Virus record (IMG/VR): IMGVR_UViG_3300031637_000014
Location: 1 to 23,721 of that record
Source of the DNA: a virus
Length of the DNA: 23,721 nt
Direction: 5' to 3' (one strand)
The notes under the pieces were generated by a model that searched no databases, had not been told where the DNA came from, and was given only the letters and a program-made list of their open reading frames with translations. Position 1 is the stretch's first letter. Every line of letters begins with the position of its first letter. This document shows, piece after piece, positions 6,841 to 17,725 of the stretch. Both the position numbers and the translations under genes were made by a program.

Positions 6841-7139
6841 TTTGTTCTCCTTAAATTTGTTGTCGTGTCGACTGTACCATAAAAAACAAAAAAATTTTAG
6901 GTTTCTTGGCTGAGCGGGACGGGTACTGGAAAGTACTGTATGGATATACAGGTAGTTCAAAAAATAGACCTTGTTATGCGAGTAACGGATATTGGGTTGT
7001 TTTTGGTGGGGGGGTTGGGGGCCATACCCCCCTACTACTATCAAGACCTTGTGGACAGGCGGGTGTAGGTAGGTAGAATAGCTTCATCGGGTTGAGGCAA
7101 CCTTGCCAGACCGACCCGAGTATGACTGGAGTAGTCAAC
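6841..7139. promoter_or_regulatory. Divergent intergenic region with motif TACTATCA and G/C-run hairpin
   Basis: This 299-bp gap separates the leftward Pro/Lys gene from the rightward gene at 7140, so it should hold promoters for both. Visible elements: an imperfect palindrome CTGTATGGATATACAG near 6937-6952; a long G run at about 7007-7013 followed by a second run at 7017-7021 that can pair with CCCCCC at 7027-7032; and one copy of CTACTACTATCA at 7032-7043. No clean sigma-70 promoter was found. Confidence 0.4.
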
Positions 7140-7685
7140 ATGAACGAAGTAAAAAAGAGCGCGAAGGTAGTAGCAGCGATAAAGGAAGCATGTGCAGCGA
7201 ACGCTTCTGTATATGGATACTTGCAAGACGCGGCAGAGTTCGCCGCTGACGAACTGAACGTGTCCATCCCTATAGGTGAGTCGGTCGATGAGGTAACTAC
7301 ACGATACGTGGATTGCTTTAAGGATAATCACAACCTCAAGTCCCAGTTTAAGAACCTGTTAGTCTGCCATTTTGGAAGCGAAGTCCCTGTATCCATTGAC
7401 ATGGGTAAAGACAAGGAACCGAACCATACTACGGCAGCGCTAGCTACACGGTTATCTAGGCATAAGATGGACTCGGCAGCTAAACAGGTTCGCGAAGCAT
7501 ATGGAACGGCACGCGAAGGCGGCGGCGGCCGAACCCCCCGAACCCCCGAAGCCCCGAAGGTAGTGGACTGGACTGTAGCATTCATCGATAAAATGGAGAC
7601 TGATGATGGGAGGGAGGATGTCAAAGCCGTGTTGGCAGTCCTTGGATGGCAGTTACGCAAAGCCCCAGCGAAGGCCAAATCATAG
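7140..7685 (+). CDS. Unknown phage protein (181 aa), first of two paralogs
   Basis: Starts MNEVKKSAKVVAAIKEACAA; the ATG at 7140 is chosen because GGAG lies ten bases upstream and because its paralog begins MNEVV. Ala-rich helical N-terminal half; the best conserved part is KEPNHTTAALATRLSRHKMD, then QVREAYGTAREGGGGRTPRT, a Gly/Arg/Pro linker, before a Trp-containing C-terminal domain. It aligns along most of its length with the gene at 8513-9175. No known domain recognised. The linker and Lys-rich end would be compatible with nucleic-acid binding, but this is a guess. Confidence 0.75.
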   Translation: MNEVKKSAKVVAAIKEACAANASVYGYLQDAAEFAADELNVSIPIGESVDEVTTRYVDCFKDNHNLKSQFKNLLVCHFGSEVPVSIDMGKDKEPNHTTAALATRLSRHKMDSAAKQVREAYGTAREGGGGRTPRTPEAPKVVDWTVAFIDKMETDDGREDVKAVLAVLGWQLRKAPAKAKS

Positions 7686-8468: not shown

Positions 8469-8516
8469 ACTGACTTACTTACTGATATGATTATATTATT
8501 ATGGCACAATCAATGA
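8460..8516 (+). other. Possible leader peptide starting in the palindrome (18 codons)
   Basis: The ATG of palindrome copy 2 opens a frame MGLTDLLTDMIILLWHNQ whose TGA overlaps the ATG at 8513 as ATGA. AGAG stands eight bases before the ATG. The downstream gene has no ribosome site of its own, so translation of this leader could deliver ribosomes to it. Whether it is translated is unproven. Confidence 0.35.
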
Positions 8517-9175
8517 ATGAAGTAGTTTCAAAGTGCGCGGCGCGTGATGCTAAAGTTGCGGGCCAAATTAAGGAAAGTGTAACGATGGCAAACAATGCGC
8601 TGGTGTGTATGCGTGATGCTGCTATAGCTTTCGTCAATACTGTTAATCCCATGGGATTAACTAGTGCCATGTTTGCGGATGTCGTGAAACATGGGAAAGA
8701 GTTGTACAAAACTGAGCTGGCTAATGCTGAGTATTTAAAACAGCATTTTGGTAATGTCGCGCTGTTAGCACTGGCGGCTGATATGCCAATTTCCTTTGAA
8801 GTTGATCGCACTGTACAAGGCGTGAAAGGGAAAGAACCAGTACATACAACTGGTGCAAAAGCGACAAAGTTGAGCAAAAACGATGTTACACTGGCCGCGC
8901 AAGCGGTACGCGAGGATATCGGTACGGCTCGCGCTGAGGGTGGTGGTCGCACACCACGTACGCCTAGTGCTACGCTTTCGATCTTTTCACTAGTTGAGTT
9001 TAAAGCGCAACTGAAAGGCTTGTTCACTTCAAGTGGTGCCGTAGCAGTTGTGCGCAACAACTTGAAGGAATACGGTGTCGAGGTAATGATAACTAGTGAT
9101 CTGAAAGCGTTGAATGACGAAATCAAAGCACTAAAATCGGCTCTGGTGAAAGCCAAAAAAGCCGCTAAAAAGTAG
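8513..9175 (+). CDS. Unknown phage protein (220 aa), second paralog, with in-frame palindrome
   Basis: Starts MNEVVSKCAARDAKVAGQIK, matching the MNEV start of the paralog at 7140; an ATG at 8501 would add only MAQS. Neither has a Shine-Dalgarno. The shared core is KEPVHTTGAKATKLSKNDVT with QAVREDIGTARAEGGGRTPR, followed by a different, longer Lys/Ala-rich C-terminus (ALKSALVKAKKAAKK). Palindrome copy 3 lies inside the gene and encodes N45-P-M-G-L49, where the paralog has unrelated residues; this segment is about four residues longer here. Function unknown. It is a single-gene unit between the 8384 promoter and the terminator at 9195. Confidence 0.8.
   Translation: MNEVVSKCAARDAKVAGQIKESVTMANNALVCMRDAAIAFVNTVNPMGLTSAMFADVVKHGKELYKTELANAEYLKQHFGNVALLALAADMPISFEVDRTVQGVKGKEPVHTTGAKATKLSKNDVTLAAQAVREDIGTARAEGGGRTPRTPSATLSIFSLVEFKAQLKGLFTSSGAVAVVRNNLKEYGVEVMITSDLKALNDEIKALKSALVKAKKAAKK
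8644..8659. repeat. 16-bp palindrome, copy 3 (inside a gene)
   Basis: Exact copy inside the 8513-9175 gene, read as Asn-Pro-Met-Gly-Leu. All wobble bases match the intergenic copies. Followed by ACTAGT, as is copy 1. Confidence 0.95.
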
Positions 9176-9194
9176 TTCGACCCTAGTCCAGTTT

Positions 9195-9217
9195 AGCCCG
9201 CGCAAGCGGGCTTTTTT
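9195..9217 (+). terminator. Rho-independent terminator
   Basis: Seven-bp stem AGCCCGC / GCGGGCT closed by a GCAA tetraloop, then a T run to 9217. It ends the 8513-9175 transcript. Confidence 0.92.
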
Positions 9218-9246
9218 ATGCCTGAAAATCGGCAACACAAAACAAC

Positions 9247-9278
9247 CTATTACTATCAAAAACACCCCATTACTATCA
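9247..9278. repeat. Direct repeat of motif CTATTACTATCA / CCATTACTATCA
   Basis: Two copies (9247-9258 and 9267-9278) exactly 20 bp apart, about two helical turns, so on the same DNA face. The octamer TACTATCA also occurs at 797, 7036, 7875, 8279, inverted at 8320 and at 10377. Candidate paired operator; no binding protein identified. Confidence 0.5.
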
Positions 9279-9303
9279 GAGTTGTCGCGCCTAATATATG
9301 TCT

Positions 9304-9319
9304 TAATCCCATGGGATTA
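9304..9319. repeat. 16-bp palindrome, copy 4
   Basis: Exact copy in the 9176-9921 non-coding stretch, with one more symmetric base on each side. It is the only copy not next to or inside a called gene. Confidence 0.95.
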
Positions 9320-9380
9320 AAGTCACCAGATTGGCTAAATTTATGTACAATTCCATATCACAACCATGGGTTATACACTT

Positions 9381-9802
9381 TGTCTATTTTAAGTCGTTGA
9401 TAACTATAGGAATAGACATTCTACGTTCTGGAATTGTACAAAGTGTCTACGGTTTTGTCTAATTTGAAACCCGCACTACCACTGGGTTTGTCTACAAAAA
9501 AGTACCTTATTCTACATATAATAGACAAATAGACAGTTATAAAACTACAACCCCCCGGAGGGCCGTTTTATTGCCTCCTAGACGTTTGGGCCTGTGTGTA
9601 TGCAAATCAAACTGTCTAATGTCTATTTGTCTATTTTAGACAAAGTGAGGCCCAGCCTAGGTTTGTCTAAGATTTGTATACAAATTTGTATCCGTTTTGT
9701 AGATTTCCGTATCCATATGTACTCAAATTATGTCAAAAACATGGAACTCCAACCCCCTATTTTAGACATCCCCACCTCAAAACTGTCTACCAATTCTGTC
9801 TA
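9381..9802. repeat. TGTCTA/TAGACA array (15 copies) in a 746-bp AT-rich gap
   Basis: Copies start at 9381, 9413, 9444, 9456, 9489, 9522, 9530, 9613, 9620, 9628, 9637, 9664, 9763, 9784 and 9797, in both orientations; chance would give about 0.2 in this length. Four are packed into 30 bp (9613-9642), forming the inverted repeat TTTGTCTA-TTT-TAGACAAA (9626-9644). Also present are the palindrome ATTTGTATACAAAT (9672-9685) and distant arms TGTACAATTCC (9344-9354) / GGAATTGTACA (9430-9440). No convincing gene lies in 9176-9921. This looks like an iteron-type binding region: a replication origin, a multi-operator, or both, probably recognised by the product of the next gene. Confidence 0.75.
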
Positions 9803-9803
9803 T

Positions 9804-9831
9804 TTCACAAATATTTCTTTGACTTTATAAT
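9804..9831 (+). promoter_or_regulatory. Probable sigma-70 promoter for the 9922 gene
   Basis: TTCACA at 9804-9809 (5 of 6 consensus) and perfect TATAAT at 9826-9831 with a 16-bp spacer, the same spacing as the 8384 and 12107 promoters. The last TGTCTA copy (9797-9802) ends one base before the -35 box, so a protein bound to the array would touch RNA polymerase. Confidence 0.65.
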
Positions 9832-9921
9832 ACATATCCTGATATCCTAACTTTATGGATTGTACATTCCATAGTATTAGCAGTACATACTAAGCATTTA
9901 TTTCACATGGAGATACTACAT

Positions 9922-10449
9922 ATGTCAGAATTAACGCCCAAAACAGGCCAAAAACAAGACTTTAGCTCTAAAGTAGTCACGCCTCGCAACGAGCTAGCAC
10001 AGGTGCAACTCACAACTGACGAGAAGAAAGTGCTGGTCGGATTAGCAGGGATTCACGCAATTCCGCTCTCTCAATATCTACGATCTTTGATCTCTGAGCA
10101 GTACCAAAAACACGGCAAACTTGTAGACAAATGGGTGAAGGAAAACACCCTAAGATCATACAAAACTCCCACCGAAAAAGCAGCCATCCGAGAGGCTATA
10201 TTAAAGCGCCATGCCAATGGTGAATCAGCCTATAATCTAGCGGATGAATATGGGTATTCAAGGGGGGCCATCTACGCTATGGTTAACCGCAACAAACCTA
10301 AGAAGCTGACAAAGCAAGATGTAGATAACTATTATAAGAACCTGCCAACCCCAACAGACCCTAGAACTACCCCTATTACTATCACGACCGAAACCGCCAC
10401 AGATGCGGATACAACAGAGCCTAACCCGCTGAACATAAAATGGGAGTAA
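9922..10449 (+). CDS. Two-part DNA-binding protein (RHH-like plus HTH), candidate regulator or initiator
   Basis: 175 residues. Residues about 25-60 (VQLTTDEKKVLVGLAGIHAI then PLSQYLRSLI) fit a ribbon-helix-helix fold: a short strand, then two helices with a hydrophobic pattern ending in YLRSLI. Residues about 88-122 (REAILKRHANGESAYNLADE ... YGYSRGAIYAMVNR) fit a resolvase/transposase-type helix-turn-helix. The tail is Thr/Pro-rich. The start at 9922 is preferred over 9907 because GGAG lies ten bases upstream. It follows the TGTCTA array and its promoter, so the natural hypothesis is that it binds the array, to repress itself or start replication. It leads the long rightward operon. Confidence 0.8.
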   Translation: MSELTPKTGQKQDFSSKVVTPRNELAQVQLTTDEKKVLVGLAGIHAIPLSQYLRSLISEQYQKHGKLVDKWVKENTLRSYKTPTEKAAIREAILKRHANGESAYNLADEYGYSRGAIYAMVNRNKPKKLTKQDVDNYYKNLPTPTDPRTTPITITTETATDADTTEPNPLNIKWE

Positions 10450-12414: not shown

Positions 12415-13581
12415 ATGAGTATTAAAGAGAACGCTTTGATTGTTAGTGTCAACGTCGAGATGCCTACCAAGGCACGTACCGACAAGAAAGCCATTGACGA
12501 GGTAGCCAAGAAGTTTGGCGTTGCCGCGAAATCAATAGACATGCGCAAAAGCCTGTACCCCAAAGAACTGCTAATGCCGATTGACAATGTTGTTTACAAG
12601 GCTAGACAGCACTGCGCATGTGATACCTACATGTGGGCTAGGGGCGAGTTCCTGTTACCTTCTACAGAGTACATGGAGTTTGCTTCCACAGGTGGCGACA
12701 TAGAGTTGGAGTTCCAACAAAATGTGACTGCATTCCTCAACAACTGGTCTAACGTACTAATAGGTGCAGAAAAAGAGCTGGCTGGCTTGTATGATGCTGG
12801 GCTGTACCCCTCTCTGGAGGAGTTGCGGCAGCAGTTTTCCCTCAAGTTCAAGTATCGACAAGTGACAGACGAGCAGGATTTCCGCGTGTCTATGCAACAA
12901 GAGGAGCTTGACGACCTGCGCGCTAGGACTGAGGCTGACACGATAGACCGCATGGCTGGGCTACAGCGCACGCCAATCGCGAACCTCAAGAAAACGCTAG
13001 ATATCCTTTCTGCTAAACTAGATGAGCCTATGCGGGAGATCAAGGATGAGTTCGGCAACTTATCTGAGCTGCGGCACGCTATCTTTCGCAATTCGACTGT
13101 CGATAACATCACCGATGAGTGCAAGAAAATCATTATGTTCGGAGATTCTGTTATTGGCACTAACGCCGTGTCTATGGCAATCAAAATAAAAGATAGCTTA
13201 CCTGACCCCGACCACATCCGTAGTCGCGAAGCCAGTCGTACCATAGCGCAAGTACAAGCTAAGGCGTACTCCAAGGAATGCGATGACCTTATGGCTTCTA
13301 TGCGTGGGCAATGGGAAACCCCTGTTGTAGCAGTTAATCCCATGGGATTAGTGGAGGAGCATTTGGAGACTGGAGGGGTACTTGGTGTGAAGGCATATAA
13401 GGCTTCCGAGGTGGAACCCATAGATGACCTGCAAGGTACGCCAACTATTGTAAAGGTAGAGCCACCGTTTGAGCCGCCAGCTAGTATACAGATACCGCCA
13501 GTTGAGGCGACTGTAATCCGTTCCGAGAGTCAGATTAAGATTGACACTCTGGAGCAAGAAATCAACGACATGTTCGGCTAG
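12415..13581 (+). CDS. DUF3150-like protein, partner of the MoxR/VWA pair
   Basis: 388 residues. The N-terminal third (LIVSVNVEMPTKARTDKKAI; KSLYPKELLMPIDNVVYKAR; ARGEFLLPSTEYMEF) follows the layout I associate with DUF3150, a family usually encoded beside CobS-like ATPases and CobT-like VWA proteins; both are found downstream here. The middle is helical (about 160-300), and the last 80 residues are a Pro/Glu-rich linker and short helix. Palindrome copy 8 is in frame there and encodes N308-P-M-G-L312. GGAG lies eight bases before the ATG, which also overlaps the stop of the palindrome-started leader. Likely an adaptor or substrate-handling subunit; family assignment is from memory. Confidence 0.65.
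   Translation: MSIKENALIVSVNVEMPTKARTDKKAIDEVAKKFGVAAKSIDMRKSLYPKELLMPIDNVVYKARQHCACDTYMWARGEFLLPSTEYMEFASTGGDIELEFQQNVTAFLNNWSNVLIGAEKELAGLYDAGLYPSLEELRQQFSLKFKYRQVTDEQDFRVSMQQEELDDLRARTEADTIDRMAGLQRTPIANLKKTLDILSAKLDEPMREIKDEFGNLSELRHAIFRNSTVDNITDECKKIIMFGDSVIGTNAVSMAIKIKDSLPDPDHIRSREASRTIAQVQAKAYSKECDDLMASMRGQWETPVVAVNPMGLVEEHLETGGVLGVKAYKASEVEPIDDLQGTPTIVKVEPPFEPPASIQIPPVEATVIRSESQIKIDTLEQEINDMFG
13335..13350. repeat. 16-bp palindrome, copy 8 (inside a gene)
   Basis: Exact copy inside the DUF3150-like gene, read as Asn-Pro-Met-Gly-Leu in the C-terminal linker, the same frame as in the 8513 gene. Confidence 0.95.
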
Positions 13582-13591
13582 GGGGTGAGCT

Positions 13592-13831
13592 ATGAAAGCA
13601 AAACCAAGTAGGACACTCAAACCCTATAACCGCAGAAAGAAGGGTCGCTGTATGGGTAGTTACATCATCAAACCACGAAAGCATATGACCTATCGGATGA
13701 TTAAGAGAAAGCATCGACCCAACCGTTTCTTTGGATGGCGTATCAAACAAAGACGGGACTACAATGTAAGAAACAAGATGTTTAAACTTTACGCTTACGT
13801 TACACCAGCGATACTAAGGAGAACGAGATGA
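13592..13831 (+). CDS. Very basic small protein (79 aa)
   Basis: Starts MKAKPSRTLKPYNRRKKGRC; about 35% Lys/Arg with many aromatic residues (MTYRMIKRKHRPNRFFGWRI). GGGGGTGAG lies before the ATG, and its stop overlaps the next start as ATGA, both supporting reality. Net charge suggests nucleic-acid or ribosome contact. Family not recognised. Confidence 0.65.
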   Translation: MKAKPSRTLKPYNRRKKGRCMGSYIIKPRKHMTYRMIKRKHRPNRFFGWRIKQRRDYNVRNKMFKLYAYVTPAILRRTR

Positions 13832-14331
13832 AAAATGCAGATGGCAGTGACCTTACGCTCCAACAACTAGTGGCGATTATCCAACATGAGATAAAGCACC
13901 ACGAAGAACGTAAACGCAGACTGGAGTTGAACCAATACTCGCCCTTGCCAGCATCCTTTTGGGATAGGGACGAACCAACCTTTAGCAAGGATATGCAGGA
14001 CGCTTTACATAAACTGATGGTGGGCTTCCCAAACATTGGGCAACCTAAGCCGTTTTTAGATTCAGACGAATCGAAAGCACCGTTAAAGCAGACGGTAGAA
14101 AACCTGCAAAAAATCATGGCGCGAGATGGTGAGTTGATACGCGAGATGGACAAGGAGATCAAACAGCTCAGGGACAAAAACCAGAGGCTTGCCGATAGGC
14201 TTGCCAAACCCAAAAAACAACAGAAAGAAAGTGCATTGGACGCAGAGCAAGACCTAGCCCTAAACAAGTTAGGTCAGATGCGCGCTAGGAAGCACCTCTT
14301 TTATGTTGATCGCAAGGGAGGAAAGCTATGA
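13828..14331 (+). CDS. Coiled-coil protein (167 aa)
   Basis: Two helical segments flank a Pro-rich middle. N-terminal: LQQLVAIIQHEIKHHEERKR. Middle: NQYSPLPASFWDRDEPTF. Then a long coiled coil, LIREMDKEIKQLRDKNQRLA to DRLAKPKKQQK. AAGGAGAA stands before the ATG, and start and stop both overlap neighbours as ATGA. No enzyme motif. Possibly a structural or accessory member of the neighbouring ATPase system, by position only. Confidence 0.75.
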   Translation: MKNADGSDLTLQQLVAIIQHEIKHHEERKRRLELNQYSPLPASFWDRDEPTFSKDMQDALHKLMVGFPNIGQPKPFLDSDESKAPLKQTVENLQKIMARDGELIREMDKEIKQLRDKNQRLADRLAKPKKQQKESALDAEQDLALNKLGQMRARKHLFYVDRKGGKL

Positions 14332-14642
14332 AGAACAGTGGATTAGATACGGAGCTGACTTTGCCCGAACAGGCACAACAACTAACCTTGTTGGCTATTA
14401 GGCTGAAGAAGCAAATTTTCAAAATGGAGGAGTTGAACGTACTTGCTATAGACACAGACTATTTCTGTGAGCGGGTAATGATGATGTGTGGTGAAGTAGT
14501 TGATAGCTGGGGTGTAGCTAAGCCCGTAGCTAACGGTTTCGAGTGTCAGCACACAACCTATGACATAGACGCCCAGAGTGGCGCGTCCTACTGCGCGCAG
14601 TGTGGGAAAAGCAAGTTGGAGATAAACCGTGAGCGGGGGTAA
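14328..14642 (+). CDS. Small zinc-finger-like protein (104 aa)
   Basis: A helical N-terminal two thirds (LPEQAQQLTLLAIRLKKQIF) is followed by a C-terminal CQH...CAQCGKS segment (about residues 73-93). The Cys/His arrangement (CxH, CxxC) fits a small treble-clef or zinc ribbon. GGAGG lies before the ATG, in the end of the upstream gene. Function unknown; such modules bind nucleic acid or proteins. Confidence 0.7.
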   Translation: MKNSGLDTELTLPEQAQQLTLLAIRLKKQIFKMEELNVLAIDTDYFCERVMMMCGEVVDSWGVAKPVANGFECQHTTYDIDAQSGASYCAQCGKSKLEINRERG

Positions 14643-14796
14643 AGGGTCACGCGAACGCCGCGAGAATAGGCGGTACAAGGAGTTAGTGGAGGAGAACAGG
14701 CTGCTAAAGGAGAGGGTTAATTACTTGACCGCTCAAGTAGAGCAGCGTGGCCCTCTACGGCTAAAGATTGTTATGCGTGATGAGAAGGAGGTTTAA
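14629..14796 (+). CDS. Coiled-coil small protein, GTG start (55 aa); stops in the palindrome
   Basis: Reads VSGGKGSRERRENRRYKELV, then EENRLLKERVNYLTAQVEQR and ends IVMRDEKEV: a basic helix running into a leucine-zipper-like coiled coil. GGAG lies nine bases before the GTG, which overlaps the upstream gene by 14 bases. Its TAA stop is the first three bases of palindrome copy 9, and its last codons form the ribosome site of the next gene. Confidence 0.65.
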   Translation: MSGGKGSRERRENRRYKELVEENRLLKERVNYLTAQVEQRGPLRLKIVMRDEKEV

Positions 14797-14809
14797 TCCC
14801 ATGGGATTA
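14794..14809. repeat. 16-bp palindrome, copy 9: stop and start in one element
   Basis: Exact copy. TAA (14794-14796) ends the upstream gene and ATG (14801-14803) starts the next, with a perfect AAGGAGGT at 14785-14792. This is the clearest case of the palindrome serving as a gene junction. Confidence 0.95.
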
Positions 14810-15184
14810 GGGAAAAAGATGTTCAAACGCCGTAAGGTTAATAGGATAAAACAGGAGAGAAGTATGGGTATGACAAACCAAATGCCGATTGGCAGCATGA
14901 CGCTAGGGGCTTTAACTGAGCTTATAGATAGTCAGATAGAGTTTCAGCGAATAGAAGCGGAAGATGAGTTCCTTAGCCTTAACTACGAGGAGATGTTAGA
15001 GGCTAGTGAGATTGTCATACTGCGGGCTGAGCTTGAGGCTACTAGAACAAAACTGTCTGTAGCAGAACTAGCCCTAGACAAGTCGCGTGAAACTGCCTCA
15101 GCACTAGCAAGTTACCTGATTACAGGCAGAACCGCCGAAGAACCAGAACTTTGGCCGATGAATGACCAAGGAGGTGTGATCTAA
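14801..15184 (+). CDS. Helical acidic protein (127 aa) whose start lies in a palindrome
   Basis: From the palindrome ATG the product begins MGLGKKMFKRRKVNRIKQER, a basic N-terminus, then MGMTNQMPIGSMTLGALTEL, then a long Glu/Leu-rich coiled coil (SEIVILRAELEATRTKLSVA). AAGGAGGT nine bases upstream supports 14801. A second start at 14864 (MGMTNQ) also has GGAGAG, so two products are possible. The TAA stop is the first codon of palindrome copy 10, so this gene is bounded at both ends by palindromes. Function unknown. Confidence 0.7.
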   Translation: MGLGKKMFKRRKVNRIKQERSMGMTNQMPIGSMTLGALTELIDSQIEFQRIEAEDEFLSLNYEEMLEASEIVILRAELEATRTKLSVAELALDKSRETASALASYLITGRTAEEPELWPMNDQGGVI

Positions 15185-15197
15185 TCCCATGGGATTA
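15182..15197. repeat. 16-bp palindrome, copy 10
   Basis: Exact copy; its TAA is the stop codon of the 14801 gene. Its ATG opens only an 11-codon frame. Confidence 0.95.
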
Positions 15198-15259
15198 GTT
15201 ATGGTTTTACATTTACTAACTTAAACTTATTTACTAGGCTTAACAGCCGGAGAATTATT

Positions 15260-16270
15260 ATGCGTATTAAACATGTTGCACCTGTAATCGTTAAGCGTTA
15301 CATGAACCCACAAGTCCGTAAGCGGGCTATGTTCCTACTCGGTAAGTCTGGCGTAGGTAAATCAGAGGTAGTCTTTCAGGCTTCTGATATGCTTGCTAAG
15401 CACGTACCTAATTGGCAGGGTGTTACAGACCTTCGCCTGTCGCAGATGGAACCCACCGAGCTGCGTGGTATGCCCGCTGTAGACATGGCTAAGCTGGTTG
15501 CTAGCTGGTGTCGCTTCGACCTCTTACCTACTGACGGTGCAGGGATTATCTTTCTTGACGAGCTGACCTCCGCCCCTAAGATGCTGCAAGCTGCGGCATA
15601 CCAGCTAGTTCTCACACCTGCTGACTTTGGCATACCTGATACATGGATGGTGGTGGCTGCTGGTAACTTCCAGAGCGACCGTGGCGTTACGTACCAGATG
15701 GCTGCGCCGCTGGTCAATCGTTTCAACTACTTAGAAGTTGACACAACGCTTGACGACTTCTTGGAACACGCTGTAGTCAATGGCTTACGCCCAGAGATCA
15801 CATCGTTCTTACAAGATCGCCCTGACTACCTGCATCACTTCGAGGCTACTGGCGAGACCAAGCCCTTCCCTTCACCTAGGTCATGGTTTGCCTGTAGCGA
15901 TGCGCTGGCGTTGGATTTGCCAGAGGAAGTGCGACCTGAGATAATCCGTGGTGACGTTGGTGAGGAAGCGGGTATTGCGTTCGATGCACACCTCCGCGTG
16001 TTTGGCGAGATGCCTCGCATAGACGACATACTTAGTGGTGTAGAAGTAGAAGTACCGACCAAGCTCAACGTAGTGTACTGCTGCGCTATGGGTCTGGCTG
16101 CAAGGGTAGACAAGAGTAACTTCGCTAACGCGTGGAAGTTCCTGTCTAAATGCCCGGGCGATGTGCAGACACTTACTGTTAAGTTAGCGTACAAGCGTGA
16201 CAAAGAGATCGCTAAGTCCCCTGCTTACTCGCAGTGGGCTATGCAGAATCAGGACGCGTTCGCCGCCTAA
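15260..16270 (+). CDS. MoxR-type AAA+ ATPase
   Basis: 336 residues. Walker A GKSGVGKS (28-35), Walker B IIFLDE (96-101), sensor-1 Asn136 (VVAAGNF) and an arginine-finger-like NRF (Arg154) give a complete AAA+ core of the MoxR/CobS branch. It would form a ring that uses ATP to remodel or load a partner, and MoxR ATPases nearly always act with a VWA-domain protein, which is encoded 63 bp downstream. GGAG lies seven bases before the ATG. Pairs like this are known in some phages (for example the N4 gp24/gp25 type), with no settled role. The TAA stop is the first codon of palindrome copy 11. Confidence 0.88.
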   Translation: MRIKHVAPVIVKRYMNPQVRKRAMFLLGKSGVGKSEVVFQASDMLAKHVPNWQGVTDLRLSQMEPTELRGMPAVDMAKLVASWCRFDLLPTDGAGIIFLDELTSAPKMLQAAAYQLVLTPADFGIPDTWMVVAAGNFQSDRGVTYQMAAPLVNRFNYLEVDTTLDDFLEHAVVNGLRPEITSFLQDRPDYLHHFEATGETKPFPSPRSWFACSDALALDLPEEVRPEIIRGDVGEEAGIAFDAHLRVFGEMPRIDDILSGVEVEVPTKLNVVYCCAMGLAARVDKSNFANAWKFLSKCPGDVQTLTVKLAYKRDKEIAKSPAYSQWAMQNQDAFAA

Positions 16271-16283
16271 TCCCATGGGATTA
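16268..16283. repeat. 16-bp palindrome, copy 11
   Basis: Exact copy; its TAA is the stop of the MoxR gene. It lies in the 63-bp gap before the VWA gene. Its ATG opens a 14-codon frame. Confidence 0.95.
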
Positions 16284-16333
16284 AAAACGCTGGCTGTAAC
16301 AGGCCAGCAGACTTATTAACTGAGGTAATTGAT

Positions 16334-17725
16334 ATGACAAGTTTAGCAAAAACATTACTAGTCACTGACCCGATTGTAGACGTTGAGTACGAGCGTAAGC
16401 GGGTAGAGACTGCTTATAACAAGCTGGGCATACGGGAGCCGTTCGTTGCGGCTGTAATGTCCAAGATAAAGCGCGAGGTAGTTGTTGACCCTAGGATACC
16501 TACGGCAGCTACCAACGGTGCGTGGGTTAAGTACAACCCCAACTTCACTGCCAAGTGTACCGACCCCCAGTTGTTTGGGCTGGTACTACACGAATCCCTG
16601 CATGTAATACTGATGCACATGTGGCGTAGAGGTCAGAGGCACCCCGGTCTGTGGAACTATGCGAATGACGCGATAATCAACTTATATATACGTAGTCGTG
16701 GCTATGAGTTACCAGAGAACGGCGTGGATGTTAAGTGGGTTACGGAGGCTATGTCGTCTGAGTTAGTATATAAGCGCATGAAAGACGAGCTGCCCGAACC
16801 ACCTGAAAAGCCTGAGCCACCTGCTGGCGGTAAGCCTTGCGAGGATGGTGAAGGCGAAGGTGAAGGTGAAGAAGAAGGAGAAGAAGGTGATGATAAAGGT
16901 GGCAGCGGCAGTGGAGGTGGTGATGACGATGATGACAGTGCTGATGATGGCAGTGGCAGTGGCTCTGGTTCTGGTTCTGGCGGCAGTGCTGACGGCAGTG
17001 GTGGCGATGAGGGGCCAGAGGATGACGGCATTCCCAAAGGCGGCTGGGACAATAGCGGCGACCTACTGGACGCGGATGACGAAGCGAGTAAAGCTGATCT
17101 CGAAGCGACTATTATTACTGCTGCCCAAATGGCTAAGACCTGCGGACAAGGTTCGGCGTTAATAGATCGCATCCTTGGCGACATAGGTAAGCCGTCTGTA
17201 AACTGGGAGGATGTGTGCAGGGAGATGCTAACTAGTAGTGCGCGTACTGACTTCTCTTTCTCACGACCTAATCGTAGGTACGTGTGGCAGAATATCTTTA
17301 TGCCTTCCCTACTTAGCGAAGCAGTAGGCGCGTTGTTGATTGGCTTTGATGTGTCAGGTTCTATGTCACAATCCGAAGCGAACCAAGTAGCCGCAGAAAT
17401 TACGGCTATCGCGTCAGACCTAAATCCTGAGTTTGTGGAAGTAGTGTACTGTGATACCCGCATTACAAAAGTAGAACGCTTTGAGCAAGGCGACGATGTA
17501 GTGCTGAATGTAGTTGGTGGTGGTGGCACTGAGTTTGCCCCTGTGTTTGACTACTTAGCAGCAAGCGAGGAGCAGTACGCTGGCATGATCTACTTTACGG
17601 ATATGTGCGCGCGTACTTCTCACTTAGTCCAGCCTGATATACCTGTTATCTGGGCTGACACAAGCGGTCATTACGGCAAGGAAAATCCACCGCCGTTCGG
17701 TGTCCTCGTAGATGTGAAGCTGTGA
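16334..17725 (+). CDS. Metallopeptidase-like / VWA-domain protein, partner of MoxR
   Basis: 463 residues in three parts. N-terminal: metallopeptidase-like fold with HESLH (residues 86-90, an HExxH zinc motif). Linker (about 152-255): Glu/Asp/Gly/Ser low complexity, made by GGTGATGAC-type DNA repeats. C-terminal VWA domain: MIDAS motif DVSGS (339-343), Thr399 in GGGGTEF and Asp423 in YFTDM, all needed to bind Mg2+. This architecture matches CobT-like/DUF2201-type partners of MoxR ATPases. If HExxH binds zinc, the protein could be a regulated protease; otherwise it is a scaffold. GAGG lies eight bases before the ATG. Its TGA overlaps the next GTG. Confidence 0.85.
   Translation: MTSLAKTLLVTDPIVDVEYERKRVETAYNKLGIREPFVAAVMSKIKREVVVDPRIPTAATNGAWVKYNPNFTAKCTDPQLFGLVLHESLHVILMHMWRRGQRHPGLWNYANDAIINLYIRSRGYELPENGVDVKWVTEAMSSELVYKRMKDELPEPPEKPEPPAGGKPCEDGEGEGEGEEEGEEGDDKGGSGSGGGDDDDDSADDGSGSGSGSGSGGSADGSGGDEGPEDDGIPKGGWDNSGDLLDADDEASKADLEATIITAAQMAKTCGQGSALIDRILGDIGKPSVNWEDVCREMLTSSARTDFSFSRPNRRYVWQNIFMPSLLSEAVGALLIGFDVSGSMSQSEANQVAAEITAIASDLNPEFVEVVYCDTRITKVERFEQGDDVVLNVVGGGGTEFAPVFDYLAASEEQYAGMIYFTDMCARTSHLVQPDIPVIWADTSGHYGKENPPPFGVLVDVKL

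Follow-up and report, generated by a model that had tools for sequence, protein, structure and literature searches.

What function is served by a long gene-free gap in which one hexamer recurs in both orientations up to the edge of a promoter? This question is raised by the genome of an uncultured bacterial virus represented by the 23,721-nt virus record IMGVR_UViG_3300031637_000014, the whole of which was analysed here and is referred to as the window. Outside the T4-, T7- and lambda-like phages, replication origins are, to our knowledge, mostly unmapped. The gap (9176..9921, 746 bp) extends from the end of a conserved gene (8501..9175, plus strand) to the ATG at 9922 and holds the whole element. 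A preliminary description of this DNA had read it as an origin or a many-operator control region and had tied it to the product of the 9922 gene; the first part of this reading fits the anatomy and the comparative data, and the tie to the 9922 protein was not supported. We consider the chances somewhat better than even (a probability of roughly 0.55) that the gap is an iteron-type replication origin joined to an early promoter, resembling those of SaPI/PICI elements. Its origin function, the identity of its initiator and its coupling to early transcription are what we infer from the organization of the locus and its relatives.

The hexamer array and its surroundings

The gap contains 15 exact copies of TGTCTA or TAGACA between 9381 and 9802, 10 forward and 5 reverse, which bears out the array as originally described. 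Chance would place this hexamer ~0.3 times in 500 bp, and for 15 copies in a gap of this length the Poisson tail is ~1e-17. The 1 kb after the upstream gene holds 16 copies against 0.66 expected from base composition, and none of the dinucleotide shuffles of this same 1 kb came near that count. The remainder of the window has 21 copies in 22.5 kb with no more than 4 in any 700 bp, and of all hexamer clusters in the window the array scores highest. The window gap therefore shows a feature of iteron origins, namely short repeats that cluster more than chance allows where no gene is encoded.

The copies fall into groups that we describe as putative iterons. Left peripheral copies (9381..9494) lie at 9381 (+), 9413 (-), 9444 (+), 9456 (+) and 9489 (+), and the spacings of 32, 31, 33 and 33 bp in the left half are near three helical turns, a remark made post hoc. 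The core consists of two TAGACA copies (9522..9535, minus strand) and an inverted cluster at 9613, 9620, 9628 (+) and 9637 (-) (9613..9642), separated by a spacer (9536..9612). A single forward copy (9664..9669) is followed by promoter-proximal copies at 9763 (-), 9784 (+) and 9797 (+) (9763..9802), all three of which are kept in the relative G001. The perfect 8-bp inverted pair, the 14-bp perfect palindrome ATTTGTATACAAAT (9672..9685) and the distant 11-bp arms CACTTTGTCTA/TAGACAAAGTG (9376-9386 and 9637-9647) noted at the outset are all present. Two further symmetries had been missed, namely 12-bp perfect inverted arms TGTACAATTCCA (9344-9355 and 9429-9440) and 19-bp arms with 95% complementarity (9517-9535 and 9620-9638), in which iterons are paired around the core.

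The core spacer with its flanks (9511-9640) could form a long stem-loop in the window (DNA fold z -5.5), and the corresponding core in most relatives folded no better than shuffles. A conserved core hairpin was dropped as a candidate element and, since it is not strong in most relatives, is put down to the inverted iterons, of which it would be a by-product. An Rfam search matched no RNA family.

Several other elements share the gap. The upstream gene ends in an intrinsic terminator (9195..9217, plus strand) with a 7-pair GC stem followed by a T run, and two ATTACTATCA boxes stand 20 bp apart behind it (9249..9278, plus strand). Boxes of the TACTATCA type occur in the window at 7035, 7874, 8278, 8320, 9249, 9269 and 10375; they are often paired after terminators, near the 7092 and 8501 genes and the start of the gap, and are conserved in relatives. 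A 16-bp palindrome, TAATCCCATGGGATTA (9304..9319), belongs to an element dispersed genome-wide. This element, TAATCCCnnGGGATTA with at most one mismatch, is found 15 times in the window and only on the rightward arm (8289, 8351, 8453, 8644, 9304, 10987, 12194, 12376, 13335, 14794, 15182, 16268, 18425, 19696 and 20297), and at several sites its first letters are the TAA stop of the gene before it. It is also present in relatives, with TATTCCCnnGGGAATA in its stead in G020, L021 and L026, and looks like a genome-wide operator or processing site. A box B-like site (AAATCAAnGACTTR, minus strand) at 9390..9403 has two mismatches and is weak in the window and strong in several relatives.

At the right end of the gap are two overlapping sigma70-type promoter candidates on the plus strand, TTCACA-16-TATAAT (9804-9831, 11/12 matches) and TTGACT-18-TATCCT (9819-9848, 9/12). 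The last iteron (9797-9802) reaches the first of them, so that the contact between array and promoter in the original account holds. The 40 bp richest in AT within the window gap are found at the promoter; the gap has a modest AT tract and a degenerate box B.

Conserved layout and changing repeat word

The window codes for a portal-like protein, a terminase, a MoxR/VWA pair, a family A DNA polymerase, a Mom-like protein and a PD-(D/E)XK nuclease. Relatives were collected by scans with the terminase and polymerase, which provided large sets including contigs of 58-61 kb. The family comprises tailed phages of ~58-61 kb, and the window phage is read as a tailed phage of ~60 kb. In the shared gene order, terminase and portal genes run leftward and the genes corresponding to 7092 and 8501 rightward up to the gap, beyond which follow a few variable genes, p12415, moxR, vwa, p18119, the polymerase and a recB-like nuclease. 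Genes for a SNF2 helicase, an ssb-like protein and a primase-helicase of ~985 aa lie to the right of the window in relatives and are present in 33 family contigs and loci, some of which are redundant.

The genes at 7092-7685 and 8501-9175 are paralogues, and in relatives one or two members of their family immediately precede the gap; no recognised domain was found in this family, which has a basic GGGR-type stretch. The stretch 12415-17725 is a conserved cassette of p12415, a MoxR-type ATPase and a DUF2201 metallopeptidase/VWA protein. A further family, p250 (~220-309 aa), is among the first genes after the gap in phages with other repeat words (G005, G009, G011-G013, G019, G020, G022, G023, G026, G028, G031, G039 and G040) and was not found in the TGTCTA phages.

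When polymerases are compared, Rhizobium phage RHph_TM3_14A (34%) comes closest among cultured phages, together with Pseudomonas phages such as KPP25 (30%). In RHph_TM3_14A the corresponding place is taken by an AT-rich gap of ~770 bp that has a box B-like site and no clear iteron, and comparison of the gap DNA with cultured phages found no similarity. Among uncultured relatives, the closest is G001, where a contig end (L001 1-300) breaks inside the array so that the full array is not covered; L005 had no match to the window gap. A 14-bp iteron pair, used as bait, matched at least 120 stretches and was too unspecific for finding new arrays.

We extracted 22 non-redundant gaps, the window included. 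Readable relatives keep a non-coding gap after the 7092/8501-type genes at the same syntenic place, with a common layout of a terminator, TACTATCA boxes (two or three in all 22 gaps), inverted repeat clusters around a spacer of ~64-112 bp, and, directly behind the last copy, a sigma70 promoter close to consensus. The inverted arrangement is a tendency of lineages with a clear word, in which the spacer is typically 64-112 bp. Many relatives additionally have a TATATATA tract in the core, GAGAG...CTCTC flanks and box B, and the repeat copies often neighbour such tracts and box B sites; at no more than one mismatch, box B occurs 21 times in gaps versus 5 times elsewhere in 11 contigs. A sigma70-type promoter matching at 10-12 of 12 positions is found at the right end in 14 of the 22 gaps (window included) and in G001, where TTGACT-16-GATAAT occupies the matching place behind the retained last copies of the array. 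Promoter matches of at least 11/12 are 25-fold denser in gaps than elsewhere, and the closest array copy is usually 1-37 bp upstream.

The repeated word itself varies by lineage. In about 13 of the 22 gaps, a short word, picked per gap after the fact, exceeds dinucleotide shuffles. TGTCTA is the word of the window, G034 and L007, and a TGTCTA array stands at the same place in L159 and L096. Other lineages have CAATCTA/AATCTA (G005, G023, L029), CTACTC(A) (TCTACTC; G009), ACTAAT (L064, L073 and L077, weaker in G013 and G011/G012), CTGCTAA (G031) or GTCTAGA (L021); G026 has mixed words, and the gaps of G019, G020, G022, L026, L056, L059 and L069 showed no clear single-hexamer array. In 15 phages the best 700-bp cluster of the phage's own word falls inside the gap and not in any other part of the contig. 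When all hexamers are allowed, repeats elsewhere, including some inside genes, outscore the gap in several genomes, and the gap ranks first or near first only in G000, G009, G034 and G031. What the comparison shows is the array, its conservation in synteny, its inverted layout, the promoter, the occurrence of the primase-helicase in relatives and, where the array is clear, a change of word from lineage to lineage.

The gene at 9922 as a possible regulator

The gene directly behind the gap (9922..10449, plus strand) encodes a 175-aa protein that had been described as having an RHH-like and an HTH-like part, a description that gains weak to moderate support, the RHH part mainly by way of relatives. 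The N-terminal half is RHH-like by a match to a NikA-like Pfam family that passes the threshold only in the G031 homologue (2.5e-6). The second half has weak Pfam and PHROG matches to HTH families, and AlphaFold predicts helices at 83-123 with pLDDT ~75-85 in an otherwise poor model. Foldseek gave no significant match with this low-confidence model, and a PDB profile search with four RHH+HTH proteins returned nothing significant, the best being a KorA domain at 0.07. No homologues were found in cultured phages, none were confirmed in GTDB contigs, and plasmids gave one insignificant match.

Short repeats are bound by RHH proteins of the CopG, omega or ParR type, and the 9922 protein could by analogy be a master regulator that binds the hexamers cooperatively and governs both the early operon and the promoter of its own gene. 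The gene is the first after the gap in all five of the genomes in which profile searches of the contigs of relatives found it (G000, G001, G026, G028 and G031), the last copy in the window touches the promoter, and the gaps of the gene-bearing G026, G028 and G031 have CTGCTAAA(G)-type sites that could be operators of this protein. In the operator and centromere arrays of omega, ParR and CopG, too, an RHH gene is preceded by numerous short repeats that point either way. Unlike those arrays, however, the array of this phage family is kept where the RHH gene is absent, and no partner ATPase was recognised. Four relatives (G034, L007, L159 and L096) retain the TGTCTA array without the gene, several more lineages retain arrays of other words without it, and the inverted core is also present in its absence. 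Because these four relatives keep the same array alone, the array does not depend on the 9922 gene; the two are not a constant pair, and the proposal that the protein is the initiator or an obligate regulator of the array finds no support. We regard control by this protein as an unlikely account of the gap. The protein is probably an accessory regulator that certain lineages have, and may still bind at the array even though the array is independent of its gene.

A candidate initiator and comparison with known systems

If the gap is an iteron-type origin, the initiator is likely the conserved primase-helicase and not the 9922 protein. This ~985-aa fusion of an AEP primase and a DUF927 helicase, read in relatives, is encoded ~13-17 kb from the gap. 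It matches DUF927 (8e-19) and PHROG primase/helicase families, and in the PDB 8tch, a SaPI-type protein entered as 'Pathogenicity island protein' (5e-10), and a PrimPol AEP domain (0.004). We compared 16 windows of the protein, not preselected, for excess likeness in same-word pairs beyond overall identity. The C-terminal segment 901-960 ranked first with 11 genomes (max-corrected p 0.023), and with 13 genomes it had the lowest single-window p (0.0014; max-corrected p 0.015); segment 541-600 was nearly as strong (p 0.008). Within segment 901-960, TCTA-type phages have N in front of a conserved PGQ, where ACTAAT-type phages have S and [AG]CTAA-type phages A. That the C-terminal segment tracks the repeat word better than other segments is suggestive only, because independent changes and lineages are few.

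In the proposed mechanism, the TGTCTA/TAGACA hexamers would be iterons for this initiator, which would bind them through its C-terminal segment in the manner of SaPI Rep proteins. The inverted clusters at 9522-9535 and 9613-9642 would form the core, where two initiator complexes could face each other and melt the DNA between them, and the outer copies would be additional binding sites that reach as far as the early operon's sigma70 promoter and could thereby couple initiation to early transcription. GC skew had been suggested as a check. Its detrended minimum in near-complete relatives falls 2.6-7.6 kb downstream of the gap, a position that is confounded by transcription direction and does not point to the gap.

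A second alternative confines the gap to early transcription, where another conserved phage or host protein would bind the repeats and activate or silence the sigma70 promoter, and gives it no part in replication. The promoter is close to consensus and varies least in position among the elements, and copies usually lie just upstream of the -35; but most copies are hundreds of bases away from it and inverted around a spacer, which is more than an operator needs, and the word covaries with a segment of a replication protein, so that we consider this account rather improbable. Partition centromeres can be short-repeat arrays bound by RHH proteins, and the terminase genes are only ~4 kb left of the gap, but a partition or packaging (pac/cos) site is the least probable reading, as no ParA/ParM-like ATPase was seen among the scanned neighbours (the sole nearby ATPase being the MoxR-like one of the MoxR/VWA pair), contig ends are scattered over the map and IMG/VR classing gives no end repeats.

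The iteron origin reading carries a further, more tentative proposal, which we hold to be possible but doubtful: that the iteron word has been switched repeatedly (TGTCTA, AATCTA, TCTACTC, ACTAAT, [AG]CTAA, GTCTAGA) at a fixed place, with matching C-terminal changes in the fused AEP-DUF927 initiator. If true, these phages would form a natural series of initiator specificities, which attack directed at origins or competition from satellites may have driven. Should the iteron origin reading be right, the family would offer a natural series of at least five iteron words together with a candidate recognition segment, and a signature by which the origins of a widespread, uncultured group of phages could be recognised.

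Among known systems, the lambda-type origin combines iterons for the O protein with an AT-rich region, its four iterons of 18-19 bp being situated inside the O gene. The window phage would resemble it in a phage-encoded initiator, iterons and transcription through or near the origin, as well as in an AT-rich tract, which is modest in the window, whereas its hexamers stand in a non-coding gap. SaPIs and PICIs have DUF927 or D5-type self-loading helicases in pri-rep. In the PLE satellites of Vibrio cholerae, the DNA-binding domain of the initiator RepA covaries with its origin, the two diversifying together while the rest is conserved (PMC8263062), similar to the pattern suggested here.

The predicted origin resembles those of SaPI/PICI elements. 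In PICI origins an AT-rich region is invariably flanked by two iteron sets (PMC6092414), and two sets flanking a central region are likewise found in our lineages with a clear word; element-specific words, and short iterons on either side of a region that in the phages is a putative melting region, are common to both (PMC6092414, PMC7581432). SaPI/PICI elements also encode an AEP primase, alongside or in fusion with a DUF927 helicase, SaPIbov1 Rep has relatives among the DUF927 helicases, and SaPI Reps bind iterons by their C-terminal domain (PMC7581432); the phage relatives encode an AEP primase with a SaPI-Rep-like helicase, in a gene outside the window. The SaPI origin is directly 3' of rep, whereas the rep-like gene of the phage family is distant from the gap, and the phages differ further in having tailed-phage genomes, a position upstream of an early operon promoter, and the extra box B and TACTATCA elements. 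Because gene order differs, the gap, itself a predicted origin, is not filed as a PICI ori; if the reading is right, it would be a phage counterpart of SaPI/PICI origins.
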